Below, one piece after another: positions 1 through 41,431 of a stretch of 64,000 nt of DNA. This DNA is from Agroathelia rolfsii (lineage: Eukaryota > Basidiomycota > Agaricomycetes > Amylocorticiales > Amylocorticiaceae). Under the pieces are notes generated by a model. It had not been told where the DNA came from and did not search any database. It saw only the letters and a program-made list of their open reading frames with translations. The translations under genes and the position numbers were made by a program. Where the stretch lies: NCBI GenBank assembly GCA_018343915.1, contig JABRWF010000005.1, positions 3,941,001 to 4,005,000 of the forward strand, given 5' to 3'. Each line of letters starts with the position of its first letter. The first letter of the stretch is position 1.

Positions 1-1800
1 CAAAAAGACTTGTTGCACTGGTGGAATCAAGTTGAAGAAATGAAAATTATCACCGGCGTGCAGGCTGTGGAATGTTAATTTGGCCGCCGTTTTTATGCAA
101 ATGTTGTGAAACACAATTGGTGAAATAGAGCTCTTGTTTACTAGATAAAGCCGCTCAAAACTTTGAAAAGCTGGAAAATTTTGCCAGCATAATATTGGTG
201 ATTTTCCCGTGTTTCTACCGAGTAAAGCTGCATAAAATCCAGATGCTTACAAGGATAAAAGCACTTCAAGTTGAATGCTGCATCCGGAGTCCAGAGCACC
301 CAATCCTCGCTGGCATATAGCCTCATGCTCGCACCTCATTTCTGCCACTTTTTACATACATGCATGACTTTACATACGTAGCAGTAGTTGCATAGGTCTT
401 ACCAACCTGAAAATGTCACTAAAAATAAATGGATTTCTGTCTATCTGTCTGTCGCCGACATTGTTGCTAAATCAATAATAAGACGACACCTACACAGATG
501 CCAAGCTACATGACATCGTCATTAGCTCTTAATACCGTCATAAATTTTTCTATCCGCTGTACGAAATTTTCACTTTTTCCATTTGTATCCGTTGGGTTCA
601 ATAGTATATTTTTTGTAGCTCTTATTTGTGCATACATCCTATTGTCGTTACAATTTCAACTATTTATGCAACTGATATTATCTATAATATTCAACTTCCC
701 TGAGTCAATGATATGCATCTGGTGTGCTACCGGGGCCATGCCCCGCACGGCCCACAGTTGCCGGTGTGTTGGGTATAGTAAATCAATATCTCAGCTGACT
801 AGATATCCATAGACTGCTTCAAGTTGTCCACGCATGAATTAAAGATAGCACTATATTTGTCCCATAAGATGTCAAGCTCAAAGGCCCAAACCTGAATTCA
901 ATTTTGAAATCTGAATTAATGACTAACGGTCCTTCCAGACTTTAGCGCCGTGTTCCATTATTAACTACAAGGCGCTCTCAGATCTCTGATACAAGAATTC
1001 AGTCCGGTGCTACCCAGGGACAATCACGATAAGTACTGTGGTATTGTCTCTTTCGCATTAGCTAGACGTATATATTAGTCCATCATGATGCTTGTATTTG
1101 TTGCTGTCAAACTCGCCATTAGAGGAGCCTTAAGAACATGATTTTTCCGAACCCCTTAAGTCATCCGATGTCAGTGACATGTATTTTATATTATCTAAGC
1201 GACTGAACCTGAACGGCTCTCCTGAGCTTAGTCAACATTATCAGCTGATATCAGGCGCCGGCAGGTAATTCAAAAACAATCATATTGCCCGAGAAGCTCA
1301 GACAACTCCTGAAGGCCTGAACGGCTCTCCAAGTCCACGATTTCCTGTTGAGTGCGGCATCAATCAGGGTTATTTTTGAAAATCACACAATGATATATGT
1401 AGCGTTACTAAGCACATCAGGTGTTAGAATATAATCAAATGATGCTCAAACACGAATTGCTCAGGCTCTCTTGCAGTGTGGCTGATATTTTCTGGTCTGC
1501 CGAGGATTTTTTATCACACAAGAATACTTGTATCAAAGTTGTATGTCATGTGAGATCATATCGACTCAGGTTCCAGTGATAGCGGTCTTAGCATCCCCCT
1601 TGTTCTTCTTTCTGCCCTTGAACCGGGGCTCGGTCTCATACAAGCAACTATCATCCCTCAAAAGTAATGACCGACTTCAAGTTTTTAGTAAATTTGGAGA
1701 TTTAATAAGACCTTTGCCTATCCTGGGGTGCTATGATTGGTGCTTCCCATCCGCTTTTGTTCCCTTTTCTTGCGCTCCCAGTACTACTACTGCATTGGGC
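1..1800. other. AT-rich intergenic DNA, no gene recognised
   Basis: Short open frames occur (for example 498-812 on the plus strand) but none shows a recognisable family, a convincing splice pattern or biased codon use. A 15-base motif, cctgaacggctctcc, occurs twice (about 1207 and 1316). The region immediately before 1801 is open upstream in the same frame as the first UstYa-like copy, but this upstream part has no counterpart before the paralogue at 9629, so I do not treat it as coding. Confidence 0.5.
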
Positions 1801-2909
1801 ATGATGACCCGGAGGAACAATTACGAGCTTTTGCAACCTAGTGACTCGTGTCAGTGCAATGAAGTCGAAGGTACTGGCTCATGGAGGCCTGGAGTTCTGA
1901 GTGGAGCTACTAATGGGAACCGCTTTCCCAACCTACGCCAGCCTTTGGGTAATAAAACTCTTGCTGCAATAGCATTTCTCCAATTTATTGCCACAACTAT
2001 CTCTTTGGCTTGTATCTGGCGTTTTCCAAGCACAAAAGAAACCACTTATCCATTCCTGCAGCTCTTGTATTGTAAGTGTTAGCATTGTAAATGGCACATG
2101 GAACTCGAACTATTCGCAGCTCCTGTGCAGGATTTGATTCGTTACGAAGTCCAAAAGTTTAATGACGGATACCCTGGACCTAATTTACCAATATACGCAC
2201 AACCATCGTCTAAGCAAGTGGACCAAGCATGGCATAATCTCACAAAATGTATTCAATATATCGATGGTTAGGTATAATTGTTCTCTCTCAAGGATGTCAC
2301 TTTTAGATGCGTATTCAAGAATACCCAAGGAATCGGCAAGCCATCTACCTAATGTAAACATGGCATCTCTTCAAGTTTATATAATGATTTTATGTTGAAT
2401 TTCATACAATAGAGGACTCTTCCTATCCCCGATGATCCCGATGGCTACTACATGGCAGCAGTAGATGTATTCCATCAGTTACATTGGTGAGGCGGTAATC
2501 TTAATTACCGCACACCACATACACATTCTGACAAGTTTTATCCAGCTTGGACCTTTTACGACAGGCATTGGATAGAGACTATTATCCTTGGCCATACGAT
2601 TACGTTGGCTGGGTAGCCGGCGTAGGCCATATTGACTGGGGCCAACATTTATCGCATTGTGTTGATTCCATCCGTCAGTCCCTTATGTGCACAGCAGATA
2701 TGAGGTGTGTGTTCTCAGGCTGTAATAGGATGCCTGCTGACATCACGGCGTTGTCAATGACCTGCCGATTTATTGTCAGTGTTGGTGAAATGCACACTTG
2801 CAGAAATTTCGACGACATCTGGGTATGGGCTCGGGACCATCAGGCTAAACAGGAATTCAACATGACAATCCATATTCAAGACGAGCTTGAGTTTCCTGTC
2901 TTGTACTAG
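1801..2909 (+). pseudogene. UstYa-like (DUF3328) oxidase, copy A, broken in exon 2
   Basis: UstYa-family proteins are small single-pass membrane oxidases that cyclise or hydroxylate ribosomal peptides in fungal dikaritin pathways. Exons read as 1801-2071, 2120-2353, 2413-2486, 2546-2704 and 2780-2909, matching the intact paralogue at 9629-10740 exon by exon. The first exon encodes a cytosolic N-terminus and one hydrophobic segment (about residues 55-75). Later exons carry both family signature motifs: FHQLHCLDLLR (its HC codons span the exon 3/4 junction) and HCVDSIRQSLMC, followed by HTCRNFDDIW. Exon 2 is 234 bases instead of 236 in the paralogue, so the frame shifts, and an in-frame TAG stands at 2269-2271 just after the residues HNLTK. 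Splice sites and catalytic motifs downstream are otherwise kept, which suggests recent decay. An unusual extra intron in exon 2 could rescue it, but I found no donor/acceptor pair that restores the frame. Confidence 0.75.
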
Positions 2910-3720
2910 TATTCCACGTTCCAAATTTGAAGAATATTAACAATATGGATGAGGTGTCTTGCAGATAATTTACTTTGAGCGGGATTTGTCTCAAACATTC
3001 AAACAAAGGTAGAATATCAAATTAAGTCGATTTAATGATGGGTGTCCGTGTAAACAAAATAAAATTACTAGTCTTGAGAGTTCACAATGTATGAATACTA
3101 CAATAGGCGACAGGTGTGTAACTAGCCAGTCACACCAGACATTTTACATCATCCAAAACTCGAAGCTAACATTCAACGGGGATAGGCGTCTAAAAGGCAG
3201 GTCAGCATAATCCGAAAAAATAATCTCGAAGAGTAGATTCTCAGACAAAATTAGTCATCCTTCATGAACGTCGGACATATGCTTGTATTTTAAAAGCATC
3301 ATAAGGTAGTAGAAAGTGATGTGTACAAGGCTCACCCATGATCTCATAATTCGTGTCTTGAGCCATTTATCCGTGCCTTGAAAATCTGTGCTGTATTCTG
3401 TCAGAACCTGAGATGTTTACATAGGATACGAAAATTAGGAGAATCAGTTGGTGATGCATGTTTGAGTACGGCTCATCGCAGAGCGTCGCCAACTCAAGGA
3501 ATGGAACAGTATCATCAACAGTTGTGACTGAAAAAGATTTCTCACCTCGTTGACTGTCAATAAACTTTCAGCGTCTATTTTATTCGATTCCGGAGCGGAG
3601 TAGAAAGCGGAGATCGAATATTTTGGAACACCGCTATGCAATTTTTCCCCTTCGATTCGTTTGCTACCTCTGTTGCACTTGGGTCTCCATTATCTACAAT
3701 CGCACTGAGGCATAATCATG
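1801..3720 (+). repeat. Segmental duplication, copy A (partner at 9629-11570)
   Basis: The UstYa-like gene and about 0.8 kb downstream are repeated at 9629-11570 in the same orientation. Landmarks shared outside the gene include ttcatgaacgtcggacatat (about 3263 and 11118) and gagcgtcgccaactcaagga (about 3480 and 11335). Small insertions and deletions are scattered through the intergenic part, while the gene exons keep their lengths apart from exon 2. Confidence 0.8.
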
Positions 3721-4501
3721 TGAGACGGACGTGATAACCAACTACACCATCAGTCCTCCTTTAAGAGGGTAAAGGAGCCTTGTGTGAACTGTCGATGCTA
3801 GCTGTTGATTCACATTATATTGCAGTATGGCTTCGAGCCCTTTTGGAATTCGATCTATTACTGGTATCTTTGATCAAGCTAGAGGCTCTGACGACTCATG
3901 TCCTATTATTTCCAATTGATAAATTCGAAATGGGGACATATGACAGATCTTGATATGTTCAACCATTGAACAACATATATGGCTGCATATCATCGTGCCT
4001 ATGCAGATGATAAGGTTTTGTCTTAGTACTCGATAATAACACATCTATGAATACTACGGAGTGCTATTACATTCAGTATTACTTGCAAACGCGGCTTAGT
4101 AGCAAGCAAGTAAATGATTTATCTGTTGTCGTTTCTGTCATTTTATCTATCAGCGGTTTACTGGTGTTAAGCGCGTAGTCCCTCGGCCGAGGCACTTTAT
4201 GATCCTTGAATTTTACCTCCATAAGCACCGGCATCGTTAGCAAGACCAAGACTACTTACAAGTCGAAGTGTTTCACTAATATAAACTACAGCAATCTCCA
4301 GATATTGATGAAGGCTGATGTGTAAGTCATTCCATGATTAGATTGATTTCTCTATCATTGCATATTTTAATTTATAGATATAGCTGCAGTGATTATCGAC
4401 AATTACTGGTCTGCATTCTTGCCTCTGGAAATTCGATGCGCATTTCATCAGTCCCCTCACTTCCGTTATAGTAATTTATATGTATACTGACATATTTCGC
4501 T
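2910..4501. other. Intergenic region, no confident gene
   Basis: Positions 2910-3720 belong to the duplicated block. On the minus strand around 3540-3690 a short frame is partly shared with the second copy (residues like SAFYSAP), but the two copies diverge in frame, so it is not called. Nothing recognisable was seen between 3720 and 4500. Confidence 0.5.
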
Positions 4502-4546
4502 TCAAGTTTCGACAGTCCCAGTGTATGTAAACTTGATATCTCTATC
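4502..4546 (-). pseudogene. Remnant of a fourth core unit of the RiPP precursor
   Basis: Directly after the TGA stop of the precursor, the DNA continues in the same frame with no insertion or deletion and still resembles the core repeat. The Lys-Phe-x-Tyr-Thr-x-Thr-Val pattern is recognisable, and a second TGA sits where the Lys codon of the Lys-Arg junction would be. This shows that the array once had at least four units and that the last was lost by point substitutions. Confidence 0.75.
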
Positions 4547-4974
4547 TCATGCCACCAGCTCTTCTCTCTACAAATTGAGATTGCATTAAGTTCTTCGCTT
4601 CCATCCTTTGTGGAAAGTAAAGCCTAATACTTACCTTAGTTTCAACAGTAGCAGTGTATCCAAACTTGGTATCTTCGCTTGCTGCCTCTAATTCTTCCCT
4701 CTGAAATTTAGGTAATTTGAATTGCATCAATTTCTTGGGTCCATTCCTTATGGAAAGCAAAACCCAAACTTGCCTTAGTTTCAACAGTAGCAGTGTATCC
4801 AAACTTGGTATCTTCGTTTGCTGCCTCTAATTCTTCTCTCTGAAATTTAGGTAATTTGGATTGAATCAATTCTCTTGCATTCATTGCTTACGAAAAGCCC
4901 CAACTTGCCTTGTTTTCAACAGTAGCAGTGTATCCAAACTTGGTATCTTCGTCTGCCACCTGTAGATCCTCTCT
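4502..4974 (-). repeat. Tandem exon-plus-intron repeat units
   Basis: Units of about 133-139 bases, each a 66-base exon followed by a 67-73-base intron, are repeated head to tail three times, with a decayed fourth unit. Both exon and intron portions are similar. For example, introns 2 and 3 both start GCAAGTT and end near CTAAATTTCAG. The array therefore grew by duplication of a genomic unit containing one exon and one intron. Confidence 0.9.
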
Positions 4975-5122
4975 CTGAGCACGATAAGTGTTGATTTTAG
5001 AATCTAGTAATTCATCGGTGCAGCAGGCAGAATCCACAACTCACGCGTCCAGGAGATTCGAGCTGGGGCAGTGCCATAGCACCAGCCAAAAGTCCAAGAA
5101 GAGCTGCTACGTAAAGCTTCAT
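4547..5122 (-). CDS. Dikaritin-type RiPP precursor with three Kex2-bounded core repeats
   Basis: Spliced reading on the minus strand: exons 5045-5122, 4909-4974, 4774-4839, 4635-4700 and 4547-4567, all joined in phase 0, giving 98 residues. Exon 1 encodes a signal peptide (MKLYVAALLGLLAGAMA, likely cut near residue 17) and a short LPQLESPGR segment. Each of the next three exons encodes one 22-residue unit. Every unit has an acidic spacer (REELEAA or REDLQVA) followed by the core-like stretch EDTKFGYTATVE(T/N)K. The Lys at the end of one exon and the Arg opening the next create Lys-Arg Kex2 sites at residues 48-49, 70-71 and 92-93, with Arg-Arg at 26-27. The last exon adds REELVA and a stop. 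Introns 2 and 3 use GC donors in the strong context AAG|GCAAGT; the other two use GT. Signal peptide, repeats, KR sites and a Tyr in each core match precursors such as UstA and PhomA by layout, not by sequence. Adjacent UstYa-family genes support the assignment. The product is unknown. Confidence 0.85.
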
Positions 5123-5201
5123 AATGCCTGAGGTTTGTATGCTTGCGATGGCGCGCTGAGGTGCGGGGCTGAGCTAGCAAATCTCATGCAAGAAAAGATG
5201 G

Positions 5202-5209
5202 CTTATATA
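5202..5209 (-). promoter_or_regulatory. TATA box of the RiPP precursor gene
   Basis: On the minus strand the sequence CTATATAAG lies about 80 bases upstream of the precursor ATG (5122). This is a clean TATA element at a plausible distance for a short 5' leader and fits strong or induced transcription of a small secreted peptide. Confidence 0.6.
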
Positions 5210-6643
5210 GGCATTTTGCCTATTGTTATTTTGCTACTTGAGGAGAGGTTGAGTTCCCGACTGGTTAGACCGAGGCATTCACGGGGAATCAAAGGCTTTG
5301 GGTAATGTGCATCGACAGTGCCATGGACTTGATAATTCAGTTGCAGGTTAGTATGACATTAACATGAATCACGAGATGAAAAATATGATAGATTGTAAAG
5401 AATACTCAAGAGCACACGTAGTGCCTTTTTCTCATCCTATAGATCTCATGACCCTGATAAAGGTCCCATCTATCATGCCTATTGACAGACGTTGGAACGA
5501 CAAGACCAAAAGTACTGGATTGTAAACTTGAATCACTTAAGTTGTTCCGTATAACAACTATTCAATTTACTCCTTCCAACATGTATATTGTGTATTCGGC
5601 TGATAAGAAAATTATAATAATACTATTGTGAGATTTAGTATAAAATAGTAATGAATTGTAGTTGTGGGCTTGGCATGCTACTTAATGTATCACAAATCAT
5701 GGCGTTGCCAGAGTTTGAGTTGAGCAACATGACCAAGACTTAGACGAAACCAAGCGGTCGTCCTGGATGGGTTGAACATACAGCAGAATTTTCCATTACC
5801 ATTTCCAAGAGCAACTTGAACCTGAACACAGTCTTGAAAGCACTAAAGATAATTGATTCAACTTCGAATTCAAGTCCCTGCCAGTGACCTCTACATATTA
5901 TGGATCACGACAGTTGACACTCAGCAGCCTCCGACCCGAGGTGATAGTTCACTCCTGAATCCCAGTTACCAAGTCTGCCAGTGAACGTTCCATTCGCAGT
6001 TGCTTCGGGGCTACCTTCCTAACCCCCTATCTTCAAAACCTGACGGCCTGGGTGTTGGGCTTGCAGCGTTTCTGATAGGAACAGTGATGCTGTGAAAGCA
6101 CTTCGTTTTATCATTTCCCATGACCACGCAAACCATCGATACAATAGTAAGACTCGGATATAGCAGGTCATGGGATATTTTTTTGCCAATAGAAATCCGG
6201 AGTTGTAATAATTGCGACGCATAGTCAATGAAAATTATTATGTACTGATAGGCACATATTTTCATAGACAAGACTGGGGTTTATTTGAAATAAATACGTT
6301 ACATTGGTAATCTGCACTCCAAGTCTCCGAAATCCACCGAAAGAGAAAAGATACAATACAGATCGTAGTGCATGTACCTAGCTTGTTTGATGATCCAACT
6401 TATCGCCTACTGGCCAGTGATGACCTACGTTTAACTATTATATCATTGCGTGTTGCGGACCTGAATTTCCTGATTGCGGAAAATGCACCATCAAATCATT
6501 CAATTGTCTAGATTCATTTATTCACATGCACACTAGAAATGATGGATTTCATAATAAACCACTGGCTCATGCTTCCTGAGCGGCAAATGACAACATTTTG
6601 ATAATTGCAATACTGGTACTAGTACGAGTAAAGGTATGTCCTC
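5210..6643. other. Intergenic region between the divergent precursor and UstYa-C genes
   Basis: About 1.4 kb separates the precursor (minus) from the next UstYa-like gene (plus), so it may hold a shared bidirectional promoter. A roughly 40-base stretch near 6065-6105 resembles 8062-8102 (tttctgataggaacagtgatgctg versus cttctaataggaatagcaatgctg), indicating a small dispersed repeat. Short frames at 6011-6271 show no family. Confidence 0.45.
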
Positions 6644-7629
6644 ATGTCTGTCTACACACTTGAGGTGCTGATATACACAGACATGCATGAAGAGTACTGT
6701 CAAGACTCAGAGATTGAAAGCGCACCATTCCTCCTACCTAACAGCTCTTCTAACCTTGCCCAACAATCTGCTCCGGGAAAAATTGAATTTAGGCCAAAGC
6801 GAAATCTCCTTCATTATATCGTCTCTCTCCAATGCTTCGTTCTTCTCTGCATCGCTATATACGCCGCCTATGTTTGGGCATCTCGAAGATCTACCAGCCA
6901 ACTTCTCTTGAAAGGTAAGCCAGTACTGACTGACTTCCATTGAGATTGTCTGACAAAAACTTTTCGTAAAGGCCCATCTGTCGATTATGAAATTAGATCT
7001 TTTTCTTGGGGCTTTGGTGAAGATACGCCCGTTTATCAACAGAAAAGCTCAGAAGTTGTAGATAATGCCTGGAAAAACCTATATTCAAGTAAGTAGCTCA
7101 CATTGTGTAGAATAATCAACTATGCTTTTTAAGAAAAAAAAATATTAGCAGCCTCTGGAAAGCAAAGTACTCATACTCTAGCGGTCTTCCATAACCTAGA
7201 GTGTCTGGTGAGTATAAACCCTTATGTTCTGGTGAATACACTGAAAAGTAATGATCAGGATGCCATCCGAAAAGAACTAGGAGCAGATATGTACCATCTA
7301 AACAAGACAGAAAGCGGGGGGGTGGTGAATAACAGCACTTACTTGACACATTGTATTGAAACGTTGCGCCAGAGCTTGATGTGCATGGCGGATATTAGTG
7401 TCGTAAGTGCAAGATGCTTTATCTTTTAAGATAGCTCTGGTTTGACTTTTGGGATTCCAGATTGTATGGAAATGGATGCCAGAGGCCAGTGAGGCAACGA
7501 TACGCATGGATGTAGGTGAGTGTAAGAACAAATACTAGTATTAACACAATTCCGATTTGATTAATTATTGGACTAGCCCACACGTGTAGGAAGTTCGACC
7601 ATGCCCAAACTCTAGCGAATCTAAACTAG
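6644..7629 (+). CDS. UstYa-like (DUF3328) protein, copy C
   Basis: Exons read as 6644-6914, 6972-7088, 7149-7207, 7259-7402, 7461-7515 and 7577-7629. A second in-frame ATG at 6683 is an equally good start. The protein has a polar N-terminus, one membrane segment (LLHYIVSLQCFVLLCIAIYA, about residues 60-80), then a lumenal domain containing VDYEIRSF and VDNAWKNLY, which are typical of the family. The second signature motif is present (THCIETLRQSLMCMAD) and so is the late HTCRKF. The first signature motif, normally H-x-x-H-C, reads HNLEC here, so the second His is a Glu. It is not a close copy of the other two genes in this window. It is divergent from the RiPP precursor and is the nearest oxidase-family gene to it. 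Whether it is catalytically active with the changed motif is unknown. Confidence 0.8.
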
Positions 7630-8137
7630 TTAGAGTGCTCTTGATACAAGTCACGGTTTTATCACGATGCGTCGTTAGTATATAATGCAGTACTACGTAG
7701 TGCTAATGGGAGTGCAACACATTCTTAAAGTACTACTACTACTACCACTACTACTACTTGTAATAGCGACTGTTTGCATGAGCTACAAGTTGAAAATGAC
7801 CATACTGGCATGTGCAGTCTGAGCACAACAATTGTGAGATATCATTAGATGTTAGTGCATGCCAGTGTTCAAGTTAGTGCCACTGCTCCCGACTTGGAAG
7901 TCGGCCTGATAGAGCGCTCTAATTATTTCAAGTTTGGCTCACCGGCAGTCAGCTTCCTATCAATGAGTTTTCCTCCAACTCCTTAGCCTGAGTATCTTGG
8001 TAGTTCCTCACCTTCGAAATTTCAGGTTGCAGACCAGCATCATCACAGCTCTAACCTCTAGAGCTTCTAATAGGAATAGCAATGCTGTCAAAGTACTTTG
8101 TCCCTTGATCTGATAAGTTGGCGCCGCGGAAACAACT
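7630..8137. other. Intergenic region with an ACT microsatellite
   Basis: A (ACT)n-type tract runs from about 7729 to 7758. The rest shows no gene. Confidence 0.6.
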
Positions 8138-8823
8138 TCATTCATTCATTCATAAATCCATTTATTTATAGTGACAGTATCAGGCCTGAAAGGCCTATGT
8201 TACCACTTCTAGGATATATGAGTGCAATGTACATGGTAGGTGAGCGTAGGCGTAGTGTGGGTGTGATGTAGTTCTTAGTTCGATTATGAAAGTTCGAGTG
8301 CCCTGCAACGGGGTGTGTCAGAAGATGCAGAATTAGTAGGTGAGTAAGAGGGGTGGATAGCCAGAAGAGAGGTCAAGGGGAAGGGAGGAGATAGGAGGAG
8401 GCAGGAAAGAGGAAGAGGAAGAGAAGGAAAAGGGACAAGACGGAGAAAGAGAGCAAAGACGAGAACAAGAAGGAGAGGGAGAAAGAGAAAGAGGCGGAGG
8501 AAAGGAAAGGAAAGGGAGCGGAGATGAATAAAGGGAGGGCAAGCAGGGCAAAGGTAGTCTAGGAGGGGGACATTAGAGGAGATTTGCATAGTGCAGGAAA
8601 CGGTTGGTGTCTTGTACGTATCATAGCGTTTTTGAAATGTTGCAATTTTTTGATAGAAGGGTGGAGAGAGAGAAGGGTCCTTTAACGGCTGTACGTAGTG
8701 AATGTCGTAACATGGTGAATCTCATGCATGTAAGAAAATGTTCGGTTGTCTCAGGCACCCTACATCCTGTGCATAGTGGGGAGTCAACTGCTTTGATCCT
8801 GAAGAGGAAGGCGGAAACAACTT
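8138..8823 (-). mobile_element. 3' end of a non-LTR (LINE) retrotransposon, degenerate
   Basis: Read on the minus strand from 8823, a frame encodes AFLFRIKAVDSPLCTGCR, then VPETTEHFLTCMRFTMLRHS. This has the C-x2-C, H-x4-C zinc-knuckle and flanking residues typical of the C-terminus of LINE reverse transcriptase proteins. A stop then interrupts the frame just before YVQDTNRFLHYANLL, which resembles the family's usual last residues, so the copy is dead. The 3' untranslated part contains a long polypyrimidine tract (purine-rich on the plus strand, about 8338-8545) and ends in a simple-sequence tail of GAATGAATGAATG near 8138-8150, as expected for target-primed integration. Everything upstream of the C-terminus is missing (5' truncation). 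Confidence 0.75.
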
Positions 8824-9628
8824 AAAGATACAAATCAATACAACAGGTTATAAGATTCGAGTCGTTTTCCTCTCCGAACGCAACTTCCAGGAAGAACTAA
8901 AGTTGTAGTCACATCAGTGCGATATTGAATATTACCGCGCACAATCAACGACAAAATGAATATATTGGTACCCCGTGAATCGTTTGCCCATCAATCAAAC
9001 TCAAATGACCAGCCAGGTTCAAGAAACTGCTGGCCATACTTTAACCCAATATGTACATCATTGAACTTGCTCTAACTCCGACCATTTATATCAGCCATCT
9101 TTCATTACAACAAGGTCGTTTTCTAGGCCCTGCCACGCCTGACCCTGCCTACGAGTCTATCGCATTGCAGTGGACATTATAAACGAAGATTTCTATCTAA
9201 TAACATCTTGCTTTGACCGACTGAGTTCTTATCAGCCTGTCCAGATGCCGGCAGACAGGCAGCATCCCAAGGCATTGATAGACAAGCGATATGATCACCA
9301 ACTAGATATTCAAATGGGGTTGCAGTTCGAGTCATCAAGATCTTCTCATGGCAGGATTGACGTGATATCCGGGCCTGCCATCATATGCCATTTCACCGGT
9401 AAGTCAATTTGCGGCTTCAACACAAGAATGTCCCTGGTATTTGATATCATGTGAATACTGCAGCTATTGCCTTATGCAAATAATGTCTAATTTAGACTCA
9501 GGAGTCCAGCCAAAAAGTTTGGATATTGCTTCACTGGCAATTTGTACTTGCCACTGCTGCCTTTCTTCAGTCACTAAACGACTTCTAGTGAGACTCTTTC
9601 GACCAACCTTCGCGAGCTGCCATCAAGC
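8824..9628. other. Intergenic region; possible small unrecognised spliced frame
   Basis: A plus-strand frame from about 9244 (MPADRQHPKAL) runs to a good donor (gtaagt) near 9400 and an acceptor near 9496. I recognise no domain, and the continuation is ambiguous. It is noted but not called. Confidence 0.3.
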
Positions 9629-10740
9629 ATGAGGACCTGGCTGAGAGGTTATCAACCCTTGCAATCTCAGGATCCACATAATGCAAACGGCGACACTAAT
9701 TCATGGAGGACACGAGACTTTGGTGGGACTCGTCATGAAACTTGGCTCACCAGCCTGAGCCTATATCAGCCATTAGATAATAGACTCCTTGCTATAATAG
9801 CGATCCTCCAAGCTATTGGCATACTTGTCTCGTTAGGTTATCTTTGGCGCTTCTTGAGTGTCACGGATTCTATTTCACCATTCCCACAGCTCTTATACTG
9901 TAAGTAATCATTGCTCAAGCATCTCATAATGATACGAAGCCTTAATATCGTTACAGCTCCAGCTCAAGAAGTTATTCGTTACAAGCTTCAGAAGTTCAAT
10001 GATGGGTTTCCGGGTCCTGATTTACCTATATATGCGCAACCATCATCTAAAGAAGTTGATCGAGCCTGGCATAATCTTACAAAACGTATTTGTCGTCTCG
10101 ATATTCGTATATCCGCTCCTTCTCAGCCTCCACGGCCATTTTTAGATGCATATTCGAGAATACCCAAAGAGTCGGCGAGCCGTCTGCCCAATGTAAGTTT
10201 GACAACTCACTAAATACTATATATTTAGCGCTAGTTTCCATACAACAGAGGACCCTCCCGATTCCCGGTGACCCCGATGGCTACTACATGGCCGGAGTAG
10301 ATGTCTTTCACCAATTACATTGGTGAGATTCTATCCTTAGTACTTTTTCACACCTTATGCTTATTCTGACCAGATTTACTCAGCTTGGACCTTTTACGAC
10401 GAGGATTAGATAGAGAGTATTATCCTTGGCCATACGACTATGTTGGCTGGGTAGCCGGTGTAGGCCACATTGACTGGGGCCAACATCTATCTCATTGTAT
10501 CGACTCAATTCGTCAGTCCCTTATGTGTACGGTGGACACAAGGTACCTCTATTCTTAAGTTGCAATAAGATTACTACCAACACCACGATGTTGATTCACA
10601 TCAACAGTGTAGGTGAAATGCACACTTGCAGGAATTTTGACGATATCTGGACATGGGCTCGGGATAATGATGCTAAACGAGACTTCAACATGACAATCCA
10701 TATTCAGGACGACCTCGAGTTCCCAGTCTTGTACCAGTAG
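9629..10740 (+). CDS. UstYa-like (DUF3328) oxidase, copy B, intact
   Basis: Exons read as 9629-9899, 9957-10192, 10249-10322, 10384-10542 and 10608-10740, totalling 873 bases (290 residues) with the frame kept throughout. The N-terminus is short and polar, followed by one hydrophobic segment (LLAIIAILQAIGILVSLGYL, about residues 53-72). The lumenal domain has VDRAWHNLTK, GDPDGYYMAGVDV and both UstYa signatures: FHQLHCLDLLR, whose Cys codon is split by the exon 3/4 intron, and HCIDSIRQSLMC. HTCRNFDDIWTW follows near the end. The family's HxxHC and HC motifs are thought to bind a metal for oxidative cyclisation. The GHIDWGQHLSHC context is the standard one. It is the intact partner of the broken copy at 1801-2909 and the best candidate modifying enzyme for the precursor at 4547-5122. 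Confidence 0.88.
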
Positions 10741-11570
10741 TTCACGTTTCAAATTTTAAGAATATTTACGGCGTGAACAAGACATTTTGGAGTTGATGTA
10801 CTTTGAACAGGATTCTGACTCGGACATTTTAAAAAAGATGAAGCATTAGATCAAGTTAGTTTGATAAAGGGTGCCCGTGTAACCAGAATAAATTACTGGT
10901 TCTGATTTATCAAAGTTTACAATATGCCAATACCATAGTAGGCGATAGATGTGTTTGACTATGCAACCAATCAGATCTATTAAACCTTCTACATTATCCC
11001 GACCATTCGAAACTTGACGCTAACATTTGACAAGGATAGGCATCTGAAAGGGGAGTCAGCAAAATACAAAACGAATAAGCTTGAAGAGCAGATCCTCAGA
11101 CACAATTAGTTGTCCTTCATGAACGTCGGACATATGCTTGTATATTTTGGAAGCATCATAGGCTAATGAAAATTGATGTGTACAAGACTTACCATAATCT
11201 TATAGTCCATGTCTTGAGCAACTAGTTCACGGTGCCTTGAAAATCTGTATCGCGCTGTCAGAACTTCAGATTTTCATATAGAGTATGAAGATGAGGATCA
11301 GTTGGTGATGCATGTTTGAGTATGGCTCATCGCAGAGCGTCGCCAACTCAAGGAATGGAAAAGTATCATCAACAGCTACGACTGAAAAAGATTCTCACCT
11401 CGTTGACTGTCGAACGATATGGAGCTTTCAGCATCTGTTTTACTCGATCCTGGAGCGGAGTAGAAAGCGGAGGTTAAATTTTTTGGAATACCGCTGTGCG
11501 ATTTTTCCACTTCGACCCGTTTGCTACCTCTGTTGCTCTTGGGCTTCCATCATCTACGTCTCCGTGCGTG
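9629..11570 (+). repeat. Segmental duplication, copy B (partner at 1801-3720)
   Basis: The same block as at 1801-3720, containing an intact UstYa-like gene and a similar 3' flank. Similarity is lost after about 11570, where copy A continues into unrelated DNA. Confidence 0.8.
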
Positions 11571-12140
11571 AGTTTCCATATTTCATTTATCTCATCTCCT
11601 TCCTGCCTACACATCCCTTCTATGATGATCCAAATTCAGTTCTGCTTCCGAAGAGAGAGCAATCTCTTGTGGACAACAACTTACCAAAAACTCTACACTG
11701 ATCTCCGTTTTTCTCGAAAAAAACTGTTCCATGCCCTTTCACTTATCCGGATTGCTAGATTCTCACCGATTTACCTACGAATTTTCAATGATATAGTAAA
11801 TTGGTACGTGATATCTCTTGATTGCAATTTTGATTCAAGGATGAAAACCAAGTTCATCCATTCTTTGAATACCTTCGGCTCCTCATGCTTTCGTGAGTCA
11901 CCTTGTCTTTGGACATGGTAGTGAATGTATGTGCCGTCCTGGTACATGCACTCCGACTCTGTGAGTATGAGTCTGGAGGAACAAGAAAACAACGGCTTTG
12001 CTGATTCATTGTAATTTTGTCTTGTTTTTGCAATTTCATGCTAATTTTTTCTCTTCAGATATCAATAGTGACCAAGGCCACGGTTGTGATTGTAGTATTA
12101 TGCAGCTTTAATTTAATAGTGAATTTATTGATTATGCAAT
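10741..12140. other. Intergenic region
   Basis: The first 0.8 kb is the duplicated flank. Frames at 11312-11701 and 11496-11921 are open but low in informative residues, overlap one another and have no family signature. No gene is called. Confidence 0.45.
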
Positions 12141-13921
12141 TTATCTTGTCGCTTGAGCCTGACAGTCTTGAGAGATACGATGAATAAAGATAAGGTAATT
12201 CACAGAGTGAATGAATACACTTGCATTAACAAATGTCTCCTGATTCCAATGCCGTTCTACGTAGTCAATGTCTTCTCTGGGCATCCAGTATTCTAGAGCC
12301 AGGAAGAAAAGACAGTCAACAATCAGGATGATGGTGTAAATCGGTCCAACAAACGGTCCCAAGTCCATTGTCCTGATATGTATTAAGCCAAAAGAAACGC
12401 AACAAAGAACAATAATGCATACCTAACCATACGCATCCAAAGGTCTTTCGACTGAGACCCCAGTACGGCGTGATAAACATTTTCTGTCCTTGTGGTAACG
12501 TTGTCCCAGTTATAAAAGTCTCGAACTCGCTCATGCGCTCGCTGAGGGTTGTGTTTTCCGTGGGACACACGCTGGATGGCCTCTGACATGGCCCGGACTA
12601 CATCTGCCACAAAGTCAATATAACGCTTATACCACTTACTAGCACCTTACCATCTTCGTCAGGATCAGCAAATGAGACAGTGTCTTCGGGAAGTATTTCG
12701 GGAACGCCACCAACACGGGTAGACACAACATATAAACCGGCGCAAGCCGCCTCCAATATTGCGATCCCAAAGGATTCCGTCAACGAAGTATTCATATAGA
12801 TTGAACCTTGAACAAGCACCTGTACACTCCGTCAATTGTTGATGGGACAAAAGTAATCTAGTGGTACTCACGTTCCTCACGTCCTCGTGCTTTACGGGAC
12901 CCAACAGCTCGACGCGATCCTGTAGTAGGTGCTTTTCTCGCATTTGGAGCAGTTCAATTAGTTTTGGTCCATCACCACCTAAGATGTTCTATATAAGGAC
13001 AACACCACGAGTAGCAATTTGAGTGACTACAAACCAATGAGGAATCGAACCTGGGGAAACATAGTGCAGATTCGAGGTACCGTAGCTACAAGGAGATCTA
13101 TTCCTTTTCGATAAACCAGCCGTGAAAGCACAACAATAGTGACTAATTTCAAACATTTAGCCCATACACGAGCACTGATGAAACGAGCTGCGAACTTGGA
13201 TCGGTTTTAGTTTGTAGTTCTCTTGATGCGGGCGTGAATTGGCCTGCAACAAGTGCGTTTGGAATCACATAAACATTTGAATTCACCACAGAGGGGCCGC
13301 CTGGTTTTGTCTTCTCAAAAAGTTGCCCGCGAAGAACAGTGTTTTCTCGGCTGTATACCTTATGGTTCAACAATAGTGTTAATGAAAGTATGAAAAGCAA
13401 AATACCCAGTGTGAGAGACACAGATAACCGCATCTACATTCCTTAGCATACCAGCTAGTAGTTTATTGGTTAAGATGCTGGCGGCATCTTCGAAACCAAA
13501 TAGACTGTGATCGGTAAATACCGTACGTACACCGAAAAGATGAGCATGTAGAACACCTTCATGACCCATAGATGACAGGCTAGCATGCGCATGTATGAGG
13601 GTGATATGCTCTCGCAGTATAATTGTCCTGAGGTAGGGTAAAGAGGTAAAGAAATTGGGCAAGGTAGCCGAAGAGACCAGTGTCTTGAAAGGTATGTAAT
13701 ACACCTTCAAAGAAGGAAGAATCCACCGAACACCTACTCGGTCGGGCGGATGGCTATGGGTTATAACAATAACCTAATACTGGAAGTGTCAGAATACTGG
13801 ACACTCAAGGATATGACTTTGGATGCGATGCCTTATGACCCCGTCGGATGAGATTTGCACTCAACATATACACATGATTTTCCACTCCTCCTACATTTGG
13901 ATGGAAAAAGTCGGTGACCAT
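12141..13921 (-). CDS. PIG-A/Spt14 GPI-GlcNAc transferase catalytic subunit
   Basis: Transfers GlcNAc from UDP-GlcNAc to phosphatidylinositol at the ER membrane, the first step of GPI-anchor synthesis, as part of the GPI-GnT complex. The spliced protein starts [14 protein letters not shown] and then shows, in family order: [101 protein letters not shown]-type [30 protein letters not shown] and FYNWDNV. A C-terminal hydrophobic helix ([21 protein letters not shown]) anchors it in the ER. The start at 13921 is the Met next to the conserved core; a few upstream residues could exist. The first intron appears to use a GC donor (AAG|GCATCG) because the conserved RGHK|VIVITH must join there. Divergent from calcineurin with a 313-base gap. 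Confidence 0.93.
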
Positions 13922-14234
13922 GCTTGCCAGCCATTTCAGCACGCGACTCGAGTAAGACCAAAAAAGCCATACGCAATCGATAATCTATCCATTGTTCCTA
14001 TCTATTTTCCGGATGACCAGCTGAATGGACTTGAAACAACAAGCGTCAATACACTGCAAGAGCTATTATAAGTGCTTATTGTAACACTTTAGACCAGTCA
14101 AGTCAGGTCACGGTCACAAGCAGTCACAAGCAGCGCCTTCCACTTGTCACGGCAAGCGTTGCCACCACTTCCCGACCTCGCCTTGTTCTTCGCCATCGAG
14201 GAGCCCTGCCTTCACACCCGATACAGAGGTCATC
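13922..14234. other. Short intergenic region between divergent PIG-A and calcineurin genes
   Basis: About 313 bases that must contain both promoters. Two direct repeats of cacaagcag are seen near 14112-14135. Confidence 0.5.
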
Positions 14235-35018: not shown

Positions 35019-37008
35019 ATGAGTTCCTACACGCAAGAGCCCATCAACATATTTGTTCCAAATCAGCGACAAAGCACAGCTCTACTATCGGACGAATCAC
35101 CCTTTCAGAATGATACAGATGACGAAAATACTCCTGAAGATCCTTTACCCAAGCTTCAAATAGCCATTCTCCTGCTCCTGCAGCTCTCCGAGCCTATCAC
35201 GACCCATATCATCTTTCCATTCATAAACGAGGTGAATAGCTTGCTAAAATACCACTTGCTTATCCACAAGTAACCAATGCATGCTATCTGCGCAGCTTGT
35301 CCGGGGTCTTGATATCACTGGGGGTGATCCGAAGAAGACTGCACATTATGTTGGACTCATTGTAAGCGATCTAATAATGTTGCTTGTCGTTCTCCGACAT
35401 GCACTCACAACATGAACTATTAAATCCTGCAGGAATCAGTCTTCTTCATCACAGAATCGATAACCATCCTGCCTTGGTCCATGGTCTCGGACCGGGTCGG
35501 TCGCAAGCCTATACTGTTGCTTGGCGTCGCTGGGCTATGTCTATCTGCGATCAGTTTTGGGCTGTCGCGGACGTTTTGGACGCTTGTTCTAAGGTTAGGG
35601 TTGATTTTCAGAGTGGACAATTCTTCCCTCGCTCATATAGAATTACAGCCGGTGCATCGCAGGTCTGCTATGCGCCAACGCCGGTGTGCGCAAAAGTGCT
35701 CTGGGTGAAATGACCACGCCGTCCAACAGAGCGCAAGCAGCGGCTCTTATGCCATTAACATGGAGCGTAGGGGCAACCATCGGGTAAGTATATTAAAATC
35801 ATTTGCACCGAATGGTCGATGCGACTGCGGGGGTTGCTTCTTTCTCAACGTTCAAGTCTAGGCCTTTTATCGGTGGAACTCTCTGGCGGCCTCGCGAGCA
35901 CTTTCCGGGATTCTTCACCTCGCCCTTCTGGGATGTGTATCCTGCCCTTCTTCCTTGCTTGGTGGCAGCAACATTCTCTGCTTTTGCTTTCACATGGGCG
36001 TACTTTTATTTCCGCGAGGTGAATCAATTGCTTACCCTCAAGGTGATCGTACTTGACGCTATATGATTTTGCAGACATTGGTAAATAAAGTTACGTCTAC
36101 CGACGAAGGGGCTGAGAGACAAGCTCTTCTTTCCAATGATGATTATCTGGGGTTGCAAACATCATCTCCAGAAAGATCTTATCTCTCTTCCCGGTCGAAG
36201 ATTTTGACACCCTTTCGGGCCATCTTAACCTATCCCGTCGTCCTCTCTGTGAGCTGCTACGCGTCGTTGGCGGTTCTCGGCTCCTCCATGGACGCGTTGC
36301 AATCCGTATTCTATGCTACATCAATTGAGCTCGGCGGGCTCGGCTTGCCTCCTCGTACAATTGGTTACTGCCTCAGCACATTTGCGTTCATCAATGGCAC
36401 CCTTCAGGCGTGCTTTTTTGCCCCACTCGTGAAACGATTCGGACCTCGCCGACTATTCTTGACGGGCGTCACTATTTTCGTGCCCGTCTTTGGCATGTTT
36501 CCGTTGATCAACACGGTCGCACGCACATATGGCACTGGCCCCGTTGTCTGGTGCTTGCTTATATTCCAACTCGTTTTGTTGGTGAGCATGGACATGGCTT
36601 ATAGTGCGTTAATTTTCTCCTTTTTTTTCTTTTCTTTTCTTTCTCTCTTCGCTCACTTTGAATCTCCTCATCTCATCCTCTTCTCTTCATGATGTGTTCC
36701 GTCTCGCTACCGATCACAAACCTTCTTCATCTCATACGAATACTTACACCGGTATAAAAGGCTGCATGTTCATCTTCATTACGGCTGCTGCGCCCGAAAG
36801 CCGTTCGCTCGGCGCGACGAACGGTATCGCGCAATCTGCCGTGGCTCTAGCACGTGCCATCGGACCTGCGTTATCGACGTCACTCTTCTCACTCTCGCTC
36901 AAGTACGAGCTCCTGGGCGGTTATGCCGTATACATGGTCATGATGGGCCTGGCATGCCTCGTTTATCCTGTAGCCTGGCGGCTACCGCACCGTCCTTGGG
37001 GGGCGTGA
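35019..37008 (+). CDS. MFS transporter, DHA1-like / ZIFL-like
   Basis: A 12-helix major facilitator. The start is MSSYTQEPINIFVPNQ (a Met five codons upstream at 35004 is equally possible), and a soluble acidic N-terminus precedes helix 1 (LQIAILLLLQLSEPITTHIIF). The MFS signature between helices 2 and 3 is present as SDRVGRKPILLLGVAGL. The motif segments RCIAGLLCANAGVRKSALGE and SNRAQAAALMPLTWSVGATIGP are characteristic of the fungal/plant ZIFL-type group (often annotated as multidrug-resistance or zinc-induced facilitator). The central loop (TDEGAERQALLSND) separates the halves. The second half includes RFGPRRLFLTG and GATNGIAQSAVALARAIGPAL, and the protein ends WRLPHRPWGA. The substrate cannot be told from sequence. 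Several introns occur, for example around 35235-35300 and 36600-36765. Confidence 0.9.
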
Positions 37009-39941
37009 ACCAAGGAAGATGGTGCTGGGAGCGCTAATGCGTCTGTATGTCTATCTGTTTGTATGTATGCGACTGCGTCATTAGAATGACGCATACAAGA
37101 GCCTGCATGTATGCGTCTTGCACATGTGTAACCTTGTATCTCTTATGGCTGAATGAACACCGATAATCTCCTTTCGATGGTGATGATCTAAAATGAATGG
37201 GATGACGAAAACAAAGAACAAAAAAAAAAAAAAACGACGAGTTGCCTCATATGCGTCTGGCATCTCGTTTCTCTCATTTCTTCTTTCTCGTCGCAATCAA
37301 GTGCACGCTGTCCTCCGTCGGGATCTATATCTGATAATATCCCCAAGTAGCCACGAAATCAAGGTTTTGGTCGAAGGAGCTACATAAGAGATAGTGAGCG
37401 CGAGGTGGGCGGTGGCAATAGCCCACAGCCTCGCGGGATCCCGCGAAGATGCCTCAACTGAAAAAAAGGGGTTGGTCGCAAAGGCGAGACCTTCTTCTCA
37501 AACTACGGGACAAACAACAAAAAAAGAAGCAAGGGGGAGGGAGGGGGGGGGCTGGGGAGGTGGGCCGTGGGCGGGAAGCCATGCATTTTCGTCGTCAGCA
37601 TCAAGCGACCTTTGTGTCTATTCATTCACTCATTCCATTCATTTGCCAGCGAACAGAGCTAAACTTACCCGTGATGGCGGTATCTTGGGATTGACCCGGC
37701 CTGTTGACGCTCATATGGTTTGCTTCAAGCTTCAAGGCTTACCAAAGCATCGCCAACCGGCCAAACTTCGCCTGAAAGGCCCAGAGAATATAAACGGCAC
37801 GATTAGGATCCTGATGAAGATGATGATAACGCCATGGCAAGTGGTTGATCTCTTGGCTCTCTCTCGCCCTCTCGCGGACCGGCCGCATCATCATCGCCAT
37901 GATCAGTGCCACCATCACCCGCTATCAGTTGTGCCGTCGGTATGAACTGTATATTGTCTGTCAGGCCGCTCGTATGAGATATCGGTGTAGATCTTGCCTA
38001 GTACTAGTTTAACTAGCCGACCGGGTGTACAACGGCCCAAGGTCATATATATCGGCGCCGGCTGTGTATATAAAGTACAGTTCTTGGGAGGTGGCGAATC
38101 GGACAGACGGGCAAAGTTTGATAGGCCACTCACTGGCTGGCGCTGATAGTTGTGACTCGGTCTGATATCTTATTGCTAAGTCTGATCTATCGATAGCGGC
38201 GTAGTTAACCTCGAGCGGGGGGGTGGGGGCACTACTAGTAGCGAAACCTAAAAGACGCGATGAGGAGTGAGTAGGTTATACATGAACAAGACGTGCAATT
38301 CAACGTGGGTTGGATGGAATGCCGAACCAACTGCACATGCATGATGCCAGTTTGTAGTAGCGACATTTTTTTTTTGGGGGGGGGGGGAGGCTGCACAAAC
38401 CGCTAGACTCGATGTGAAGCCTAAGTGTTGCAATATTGTGAGAGAACGAAGGCCTAGGCAATTGAAGCGCGACCGATATGGTACTATCGCCAGCACATAT
38501 ACGTGTTGGTTGCTCGATGCAGCAGGCGGACACGTCGTGAGTGAGTGGCATGTACGGCATAGTCTGTACGGTTAGATAGACAGATGGAGTAGTACAATGC
38601 AAATAGTGTGCATGTCTGCGCTCATGGATTAGTATAGCTACATCAATCAGCGCATGACCAGCCTGAGGAGAAAATATAAATTCAGACGATCGGAGCGCCT
38701 TAGAATTCCAATACATACAGCTTCCGTTTGACAGCGGGTTGTAATTCGAAATTGGAGGATTATATTTCGCGGTTTTAGCTCATTGGCATACTAAGTGATA
38801 CTTGCATTGTGTGCACTGGCAGCTTACCAGTAGTATACTACGTGTAACAGGTCGAACTTTGAGCTTGAACGTTTGAACATGTGATGGTCATTCAGTTTCA
38901 ATACTTAATGATACGTTTACATTGACTCCACAATCTACACAAACAGTTCCTGGTAAGAAATTTACTTGCCGTGACTGAATCACGTTGATTATAGTCAACC
39001 TCGCACTTGCAACTCCTAACATTACGCTTGACGTCATGACTTACATCCACGATGATCATAGCCATACACAATACACATACACACGCTTTAATTTTTTAAT
39101 TTTTATTTGAGCTCATGATGTCATTCAACTTCAACCCACAAACATGACAGCCTATCTACATAGCACGTTCATGATATTAAATTCTAGATTATCCACAAAT
39201 TAATGATGCCTTGTCGAGCATACACATGCACCTAGACTACCTGCCATGAGGTACAGCGCAGGGATACTGGCAACAGATCTACCACACGTGGTAAACACAC
39301 GAAAGTGACGCAAGCAAAAGTTCTCCTTTCTTTAATATATATATATCGAGGAACCTACCAAATGTGTTTAGAACGCTCAGGACAAATTGAAGCACCCCTA
39401 AAGAAAAAAAAAAAAAGATGACGAGTCAAGGATATCGAATTAAATTTTAAGTGAATATTACAATCGAGTGAGCAATGTGCGATGGTGGCATGCATGCGCA
39501 CGTTGGACCTACTACTAACAACCAAGAAACATCCTCGACCAGGAGAAGCATTTGATAAGCGAGAGTGTGTGTGGAAGGGGGAGGAGGGGGGCGGGGGCGG
39601 AAGAAAGGGAAGAACGATAGCAAACGGGACAGAGGCAGGGATGGAAAGATAGAGAGAAGACAAATGGCATATTAGTACAACATCAGCATCAGCATCGCAT
39701 CATCAGAAGATCATCGACTGCAACAACAACAGCAAAAGCATCAAGAAAAAGAGAGAGAGAAAAAACTATATAAAGGGTCCAAAAATGTCGTGCTACGAGA
39801 CTCGGAGCTGCAAATGAAACGAGCCCCTTCAGTGGGTGAGAAAAAATGTGTAGTACAAATCTACGTCGAAAGCTCAGCACCAACTGAGCGCGAAATAAAG
39901 AGAAGAGAAAATTTAGATAAGAAAATCGGACAGGAAGAAGC
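37009..39941. other. Large intergenic region, no gene supported
   Basis: Nearly 3 kb with homopolymer and simple-sequence patches (A-run near 37219, G-rich near 37530-37555, T9-G12 tract near 38367-38388, TA-repeat near 39335). Open frames such as 37394-37945 have skewed composition and no family. The A/G-rich stretch 39600-39780 is likely the 3' UTR of the minus-strand gene to the right. Confidence 0.45.
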
Positions 39942-41431
39942 CTAGTTATGAGCTGGAGGAGGCATATCCGGCATCAGATAATGCATCGGCTTCGACTGGA
40001 GCTGCATCGTCGGTGAGACCGCCGTTGGAGATGGTTGTTGCTGGGAAGTCACGCTCGCGCTTTGTACGATACCCAGCTCTTCGGGTGTATACTGCGGCAC
40101 CGCCTTGCGTGCCGTGCGCTTGACGCCGTTGCCTGACGCCGTCTGCGTCATGGGGATCATCTCCATTGTTTTGGCAGTATCGAGCGACATGTGCCGCTGG
40201 ATCTTGGTTGTACCGGCGTTGGGGTTCGTCTGCGACGCCAAATGGAGTTCGGAGGTGCTCCCGAGTGTGTTCTGGCGTGTGAGGTAATGCGATGTCGGCG
40301 GAGACTGTCCGGTGGCTGTAGGCGAGTCCAGGCGCGTGGAAGACGACGAGGCTTTGCGAGAACCATTGTTATACGGCAGGTTCTGGACATTCGGGGCATA
40401 GGATGACATGCCGAGCTTTTCAGCTTCGACCGAGGCCAGATCTTCCTCAGAGCCGCCAACGGCCGTTGCCTGACTCATGGCAGACTGTGAATGTTGTGAG
40501 ACATGGCTAGCACTGCGATTGGGAGCGGAGTTGATGTTGTTAGCGGGCCGTATTGCGCTATCATTAGATTGAAGCCCGTTCCAGCCACTTGAGTGGCTTC
40601 GGGGAGCAGCTGAGCCATAGCGTCGGCGAATGCGATAGAATAGACACAATCCAAATATGGCTGCTATAGCAATCAGACCACCAATGATACCACCTGCGAT
40701 TGCACCTGACGGAACATGGGAAAAGGATGAGGATGAGGGGGATAGTGAAGATGAGGCAGTGACCGCGGAAGATGAAGATGAAGAGGAACTTGAAGAGGAA
40801 GATTGAAACGATGTACTTGAAGCACTAGATGGTACAGAACTAGCTGTGCTAGAAGCCGAGGTCTGGATACATGAAGTATCGGTCCCGTCAACGATGTTGA
40901 AGTCGTTCGATGGCTGAGAAGTAATGCTACCGCGGGAGGCGATCAGGTAGTAATTTCCCGATGGCAAGTTAACTGGAGACCACGTATATGAATCAAGTGA
41001 CGGATTAGTATCGTCGATCAATACAACAGGAGAACCGCCGCTTGAGGACTGAATGGTAAGGCTAACGGCACCACCCGTTCCAGAATAAGTCCAACCAATG
41101 GTAGCTGATTTTATGAAGTGTTGAGTTGAGAAAACAAACGGCATAAAAGTACAGGAGTGTCGTAACATACCAGATGTACATGTCGTAAGCTGAGGGATCG
41201 TATTGAACTGAAACGACTCTGAGGATGTAGAACTGCTAGGTGTGGAGGCGGACGATGTGGCTGTTGAACCCGACCCTGTGGTCGATAGCTAGAAACGATT
41301 TGGTTGAGATCTTCAACTCGGTTAAAACTAATGCAAAGCAAACTCACAAGCCCTCCCTGACGAGGGATATGGATGGCACCAACATTCATCGAAAAGGCAC
41401 AGAGAAATGGTAAATAATATTGTTGCTTCAT
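39942..41431 (-). CDS. Secreted/membrane Ser-rich single-pass protein (fungal cell-surface type)
   Basis: The start is MKQQYYLPFLCAFSMNVGA at 41431, a signal peptide. After an intron comes a Ser/Thr-rich segment (STTGSGSTATSSASTPSS) and a compact beta domain that looks Ig-like: ATIGWTYSGTGGAVSLTIQ, then SYTWSPVNLPSGNYYLIAS and FNIVDGTDTSCIQTS, with one Cys near each end. This is the pattern of the Ser-Thr-rich GPI-anchored-type (Kre9/Knh1-like N-terminal) domain in basidiomycetes. A long poly-Ser linker leads to a membrane helix (AIAGGIIGGLIAIAAIFGLC) and an RIRRRYG stop-transfer sequence. A cytosolic tail of about 230 residues, rich in Ser, Thr and Pro, ends DMPPPAHN. The architecture resembles cell-wall stress sensors, but function is inferred. 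Confidence 0.75.

Follow-up and report, generated by a model that had tools for sequence, protein, structure and literature searches.

The window, i.e. the whole stretch of 64,000 nucleotides that was analysed, contains a small, intron-rich gene on its minus strand at 5122-4547. The first-pass annotation had placed it there, and its account is correct in position, strand, number of exons and repeats. Its in-frame spliced ORF codes for a precursor of 98 amino acids: a 26-residue leader, three units of 22 residues and a 6-residue stub. Exon by exon the precursor reads MKLYVAALLGLLAGAMALPQLESPGR, REDLQVADEDTKFGYTATVENK, REELEAANEDTKFGYTATVETK, REELEAASEDTKFGYTATVETK and REELVA, followed by the stop. 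In the direction of transcription the features are:

5203..5209, minus strand: TATA-like TATATAA, 87 nt upstream of the ATG
5045..5122, minus strand: exon 1, 78 nt, leader MKLYVAALLGLLAGAMALPQLESPGR (ORF model; leader homologues in six other genes)
4975..5044, minus strand: intron 1, 70 nt, GT-AG, phase 0 (ORF model)
4909..4974, minus strand: exon 2, 66 nt, unit 1 REDLQVADEDTKFGYTATVENK (ORF model and unit pattern)
4840..4908, minus strand: intron 2, 69 nt, GC-AG, phase 0 (ORF model)
4774..4839, minus strand: exon 3, 66 nt, unit 2 REELEAANEDTKFGYTATVETK (ORF model and unit pattern)
4701..4773, minus strand: intron 3, 73 nt, GC-AG, phase 0 (ORF model)
4635..4700, minus strand: exon 4, 66 nt, unit 3 REELEAASEDTKFGYTATVETK (ORF model and unit pattern)
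4568..4634, minus strand: intron 4, 67 nt, GT-AG, phase 0 (ORF model)
4547..4567, minus strand: exon 5, 21 nt, stub REELVA and stop, which gives the Arg of the last Lys-Arg site (ORF model)
4502..4546, minus strand: degenerate extra unit past the TGA, in the same frame and untranslated in the model (DIKFTYTGTVET; DRDIKFTYTGTVET and stop)

All four introns are of phase 0, and their donors are GTGAGT, GCAAGT, GCAAGT and GTAAGT, i.e. introns 2 and 3 are of the GC-AG type (exon end AAG, then GCAAGT). The first codon of each unit is Arg and the preceding exon ends with Arg (leader) or Lys (units), so the dibasic site is present only after splicing. In the spliced model there is RR at junction 1 and KR at junctions 2-4, in agreement with the earlier description of three near-identical 22-residue units with dibasic junctions. 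The tyrosine-bearing core EDTKFGYTATVE is present in all three units. In the leader a hydrophobic stretch, as judged by simple hydropathy only (mean Kyte-Doolittle value of 2.4 over 11 residues), is followed by A-M-A. The exon borders are deduced from the sequence and from the relatives of the gene, and the splicing is to be read as predicted.

DUF3328/UstYa genes had been predicted to lie nearby, and three are found, all with PF11807 matches above the Pfam cut-off and situated on both sides of the precursor. There is one such gene 1.6 kb from either end of it, while the third starts at 9629; all three are within 5 kb.

1801..2909, plus strand: U1, canonical UstYa, six exons, 269 aa, HQLHC and HLSHC (PF11807, 150.2 bits)
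6683..7629, plus strand: U2, degenerate UstYa, six exons, 219 aa, HNLEC then YLTHC (PF11807, 95.7 bits)
9629..10740, plus strand: U3, canonical UstYa, six exons, 270 aa, HQLHC and HLSHC (PF11807, 150.6 bits)

U1 and U3 are 70% identical. Both carry the two HxxHC motifs, a pair that is incomplete in U2 and in four similar genes, where the first motif is degenerate; the activity of such enzymes is uncertain, since they have no normal first motif. A PF11807 search of the genome (37.7 Mb) gives 36 rows, four of them in the window, and these four resolve to the three spliced genes above. The cluster seems to be bounded by the GPI-anchor gene PIGA at 13363-13773. Among the 30 window ORF sequences that were scanned for domains, no tyrosinase, peptidase or transporter was recognised.

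Searches with the units and the leader show that the genome contains seven related precursors, including the window gene. Below, C5 is the contig of the window, and C5:3946122 is the window precursor itself.

C5:3946122 (window): three units of 22 residues, core DTKFGYTATVE
C4:394242, plus strand (L021:6242-7250): six 22-residue unit exons, core DTKYGYTVTVE, GC donors at 6/7 introns
C5:3935595, minus strand (C5:3934642-3935595; L009:3642-4595): six 69-nt exons, 23-residue units RDESETDGTDISAFAYGGRAIEK and variants
C4:386014: one unit, REESVVTDEDWYVEFGYKR, then stop
C5:3872323: one unit, REETEVNEEDWYVLFGYKR, then stop
C4:387938: one unit, REDAEEDSFPISVGILFDYPYQ, then stop, no basic residue pair at the joint
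C5:3870679: one unit, REDAEEARIPITVGILFDYPLQ, then stop, no basic residue pair at the joint

Some of the leader matches are weak when taken alone (E 0.01 to 0.25), and they were accepted because a unit exon follows each of them. All 22 introns modelled across the seven precursors are of phase 0. GC donors are found at eight of these, all in the two FGY/YGY genes. The precursor at C5:3935595, 5.4 kb upstream of the window, has a different core (ISAFAYGGRAIEK), introns of 58 nt and GTTATT donors at two of its seven introns. The first-pass annotation had tied its reading to relatives with conserved KR spacing, and such relatives exist, with six 22-residue exons at C4:394242 and six 23-residue exons at C5:3935. 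A TATA-like match is present about 75 to 110 nt 5' of the ATG in all seven genes, a raw count taken with no background control, and at C4:394242 it is the weaker TTATAAG.

Five of the seven precursors head a cassette of constant order: the precursor, then on the other strand a UstYa with a degenerate motif, then a canonical UstYa. The other two, C4:387938 and C5:3870679, adjoin a cassette but lie outside it. The three genes of each cassette are located as follows:

C5:3872/3873.7/3875.9 kb: cassette
C5:3935.6/3939.7/3942.8 kb: cassette
C5:3946.1/3947.7/3950.6 kb: cassette (window)
C4:386.0/384.6/382.6 kb: cassette, inverted
C4:394.2/392.8/390.6 kb: cassette, inverted

The cores vary between the cassettes and contain tyrosine, mostly as aromatic-X-Tyr. 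Both motifs are kept in all five canonical enzymes. In the degenerate ones the first motif is HNLEC (two), YSLEC (two) or DSLKC (one), while the LTHC of the second motif is kept in five of five. For the three window genes this rests on exon-level models, and for the other cassette enzymes on aligned pieces or raw frames. The gene with DSLKC, a UstYa relative at C5:3939664-3940551 (plus strand; L009:8664-9551), was missed by PF11807 and found by tblastn with U2. We infer that the degenerate UstYa is a non-catalytic partner of the canonical one. It is plausible that the two form a working pair, because a pair of UstYa-type proteins, UstYa and UstYb, is needed for ustiloxin too, according to the portion of PMC6514808 that was covered.

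A tRNA-like stretch is seen beside both the window cluster (about 3707-3757) and the one with the C4:394242 precursor (L021, about 7960-8070). A 51-nt piece of it recurs near C5:3932.0 kb at 96%. ARAGORN lists no tRNA at the window stretch.

The DNA of the window precursor is underlain by a tandem repeat of about 135-139 nt, as would be the case if it were a non-coding tandem repeat, or a product of chance, that happens to be open. However, the frame, the splice signals, the dibasic junctions and the UstYa neighbours are not expected by chance, and the same build is found in the C5:3935 gene with an unrelated core sequence. A pattern control points in the same direction. The unit pattern, written post hoc after the units had been seen, consists of an acceptor, an R-[ED]-unit with an aromatic residue, a basic end and a donor or stop. 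In window positions 1-14000 it has three matches, all of which are units of the precursor, while in 200 first-order Markov sequences the mean is 0.08 and the maximum 1. There is no match in window positions 14001-64000. We therefore leave this explanation with next to no probability.

Across 211 kb of fetched loci the pattern has 17 matches, of which 15 are units of the precursor family and two are not. It is escaped by two of the six units of the C5:3935 gene (those with GTTATT donors) and by the single units of the two genes without a basic end. The repeat scans and the unit pattern covered 20 stretches around UstYa matches (L020-L039), L009, L010 and the start of the window, i.e. part of the 36 PF11807 rows, and they detect near-identical repeats or the signature of the precursor family only. 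Within these stretches exon-per-unit genes are found only at C4:386-395 kb, C5:3872 kb, C5:3935 kb and in the window. Tandem repeats at L009:7436-7783 and L033:1194-3006 were dropped as precursor candidates, as no leader or units were seen. The former (C5:3938.4-3938.8 kb) are repeats of about 64 nt that look non-coding and lie between two cassettes.

The window has a counterpart on C4. Positions 2114-14000 align piecewise and inverted to C4:378-396 kb at 75-86%, and positions 36000-40000 align to C4:350334-354377 at 84%. The matching loci are either two haplotypes or an older duplication. PIGA is present in two copies in the genome, and there are Rpb1 domain rows at four loci (C1, C2 and two on C3). 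The Rpb1 rows do not decide between haplotype and duplication, so we refer to the C4 copy as the matching locus and not as an allele. The two loci differ in core (FGYTATVE versus YGYTVTVE), in unit number (3 versus 6) and in cassette number.

To assess constraint, the window gene was compared with C4:394242 over the leader, the first unit and the last unit (70 codons). There are 12 synonymous differences in 47.8 sites and 13 nonsynonymous differences in 162.2 sites, i.e. a dN/dS of 0.28, and the synonymous excess has a Fisher p-value of 0.004 (rounded counts). By codon position the differences are 4, 8 and 13. The DNA identity is 0.85-0.90 in exons, barely above the 0.81-0.89 in introns, so that overall the DNA is recent, with few changes behind the constraint signal. 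The leader exon alone has a dN/dS of 1.1.

This absence of constraint in exon 1, the GC donors at introns 2 and 3 and the degenerate unit past the TGA would fit a window copy that is decaying or unexpressed, with a last unit truncated by a stop, weak donors and the functional copies in the other cassettes. We find such decay improbable, however, as the three units that are left are intact and under constraint, and the spliced ORFs of U1, U2 and U3 are uninterrupted. Further, the other two multi-unit genes end in a like stub, REELWY at C4:394242 and RDNA at C5:3935, each followed by a stop, so the stub may be normal. The C4 copy is followed by a relic that matches the degenerate extra unit but lies in a shifted frame.

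Outside the genome, the enzymes have many relatives. When U3 was searched, 98 of 457 candidate proteins matched with E no higher than 0.001. The best identity is 47%, so the host is probably an agaricomycete absent from the set searched. Among the first 15 matches 11 are named, from Panus, Collybia, Steccherinum, Cristinia, Somion, Cerrena, Paramarasmius, Crucibulum, Psilocybe and Pleurotus, genera which we take to be Agaricomycetes, and the first ascomycete is at rank 16. The PDB contains nothing related to U3 in sequence, even with the threshold at E 1.

For the window precursor alone no homologue is found among 251 candidates. A profile of three precursors, scored on the 7989 candidates sharing most words, gives one weak match, BDR04DRAFT_1100220 of Suillus decipiens (P0099; E 0.078). 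This protein of 143 aa is annotated as a KEP and has a hydrophobic N-terminus. Its units, for example RDELETNLVGYIGYGGGRAIEK with R-[DE]-E-L after it, are near the C5:3935 unit RDESETDGTDISAFAYGGRAIEK, and the two genes share a common unit RDE-E-T ... YGGGRAIEKR. However, its units are less regular and KR is missing at two unit joints. All Pfam matches to the precursors are below the cut-off and were taken as chance matches of repeats.

In general there is a resemblance between the window locus and those of the dikaritins (ustiloxin, phomopsin, asperipin-2a and victorin), which also combine a multi-core precursor (secreted, as is predicted for that of the window), Kex2-type sites, neighbouring DUF3328/UstYa genes and a core tyrosine. 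The aromatic-rich cores of the window family recall the FYYTGY of asperipin, as given in the part of PMC6514808 covered. A few differences can be observed: the window gene has one exon per unit, a splice-made dibasic site, predicted peptides of 20 residues and a basidiomycete host, and its locus shows no tyrosinase among the 30 ORFs scanned. The window core sequence is not among the dikaritin cores named in the portions of the literature covered. Epichloecyclins (GigA) are similar in their imperfect repeats and KR sites, and their signal peptide and tyrosine-based cyclisation agree with what is predicted for the window gene, but they come from ascomycetes and their sequences are unrelated as far as described in the covered parts of PMC9233826 and PMC6514808. 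That the characterised dikaritins come from ascomycetes, as stated by the first-pass annotation, agrees with the parts of the reviews PMC9233826, PMC12048977 and PMC6514808 that were covered.

The layout also is that of the KEPs, as defined by Le Marquer 2019 and Umemura 2020 and found to be spread across fungi (PMC6339444, PMC7329392, in the parts covered). According to the covered part of PMC7329392, DUF3328 genes are found near 103 of 1680 basidiomycete KEPs, the co-occurrence of Tyr and DUF3328 is general, and the fewness of basidiomycete KEPs with such neighbours is remarked upon. A dikaritin-like locus in a basidiomycete is therefore not new in silico. What we did not find in the open-licence literature is a precursor with one exon per unit and splice-made Kex2 sites, or a repeated precursor-UstYa-UstYa cassette. 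This exon-by-exon build of a peptide gene is uncommon, and gene finders can readily overlook it. In the main texts of the KEP surveys, as far as covered, the words intron and exon are absent from PMC7329392 and the word intron from PMC6339444. KEP and dikaritin surveys start from predicted proteins, and precursors with exons of 66-69 nt and GC or odd donors would often be missing or broken there; basidiomycete dikaritin-like loci may thus be undercounted. A scan for short acceptor-unit-donor modules in the vicinity of UstYa genes is an easy means to find more of them, as seen in one genome.

At C3:5318.3 kb (L037:7347-7948, plus strand) the same genome carries a conventional KEP, which has a leader exon and then a single exon holding all 12 of its units (DDLDITLKQPYKR is an example), with a UstYa match about 1.9 kb away. 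The multiplication of cores as exons versus repeats within an exon is testable, as this gene shares both the genome and a UstYa neighbour with the exon-per-unit family.

Taken together, the gene anatomy, the flanking UstYa genes, the family, with relatives of conserved KR spacing, and the constraint support the dikaritin-like reading of the first-pass annotation. In our judgement the window gene probably codes for the precursor of a Kex2-processed, UstYa-modified dikaritin-like RiPP of an agaricomycete. Another reading is that the peptides are released linear and unmodified, as KEP peptides acting as signals or surface peptides, and that the UstYa neighbours serve other substrates. In the parts covered, 1577 of the 1680 basidiomycete KEPs have no DUF3328 neighbour (PMC7329392), and peptidomics has detected KEP peptides in Agaricomycetes that are linear or carry minimal modification (PMC9769878). 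The recurrence of the precursor and the two UstYa types in five cassettes, in the same order and orientation, and the tyrosine kept in the cores argue against it, and we regard it as unlikely.

For a modified, dikaritin-like product the steps in vivo would be as follows. The transcript would be spliced as modelled and the precursor would enter the secretory pathway; Kex2 would cut after each Lys-Arg or Arg-Arg, and Kex1 would trim the basic residues. This would release three peptides, each about 20 residues long and built around (D/E)DTKFGYTATVE, predicted as EDLQVADEDTKFGYTATVEN, EELEAANEDTKFGYTATVET and EELEAASEDTKFGYTATVET. The canonical UstYa (U3, perhaps U1), with the degenerate-motif U2 as a helper, would oxidatively cross-link the peptide via its tyrosine, and the product would be secreted. 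From the seven precursors, whose cores have diverged and of which at least five adjoin such an enzyme pair, the fungus would obtain a small set of related cyclic peptides. Given the GC donors (two of four introns in the window gene) and the GTTATT donors (two of seven at C5:3935), splicing may be inefficient. In Pleurotus, fruiting bodies show developmental expression of 6 of 16 UstYa-like genes, according to the covered part of PMC8893723; this is a reason to test for a defensive or developmental role and goes no further.

Unit number may shift when entire exon-intron modules are duplicated or lost (three units here, six at the C4 matching locus). Frame and cleavage sites would survive such changes, because the exons are multiples of three and the introns are of phase 0. 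A wider reading, which we put forward tentatively and hold to be possible but on the whole doubtful, is that of an exon-modular RiPP family, in which one exon equals one core, splicing writes the protease sites and phase-0 modules can be duplicated, lost or skipped harmlessly. Weak GC donors might then tune the number of cores per transcript, and the cassette would be portable, with diversifying cores and a constant enzyme pair. In the five cassettes the cores differ and the enzymes are paired, which offers a natural series for studying UstYa recognition and the role of the motif-degenerate partner.

Elsewhere in the window, 129-nt repeats at 46020-47742 were considered as a precursor candidate and rejected, as they are WD40 repeats. 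They belong to a pair of adjoining long ORFs on the minus strand at 45928-49867, NACHT (602 aa) then WD40 (691 aa), that has the look of a NACHT-WD40 STAND protein. The WD40 ORF contains 13.4 nearly identical copies of the 129-nt repeat (96% match).
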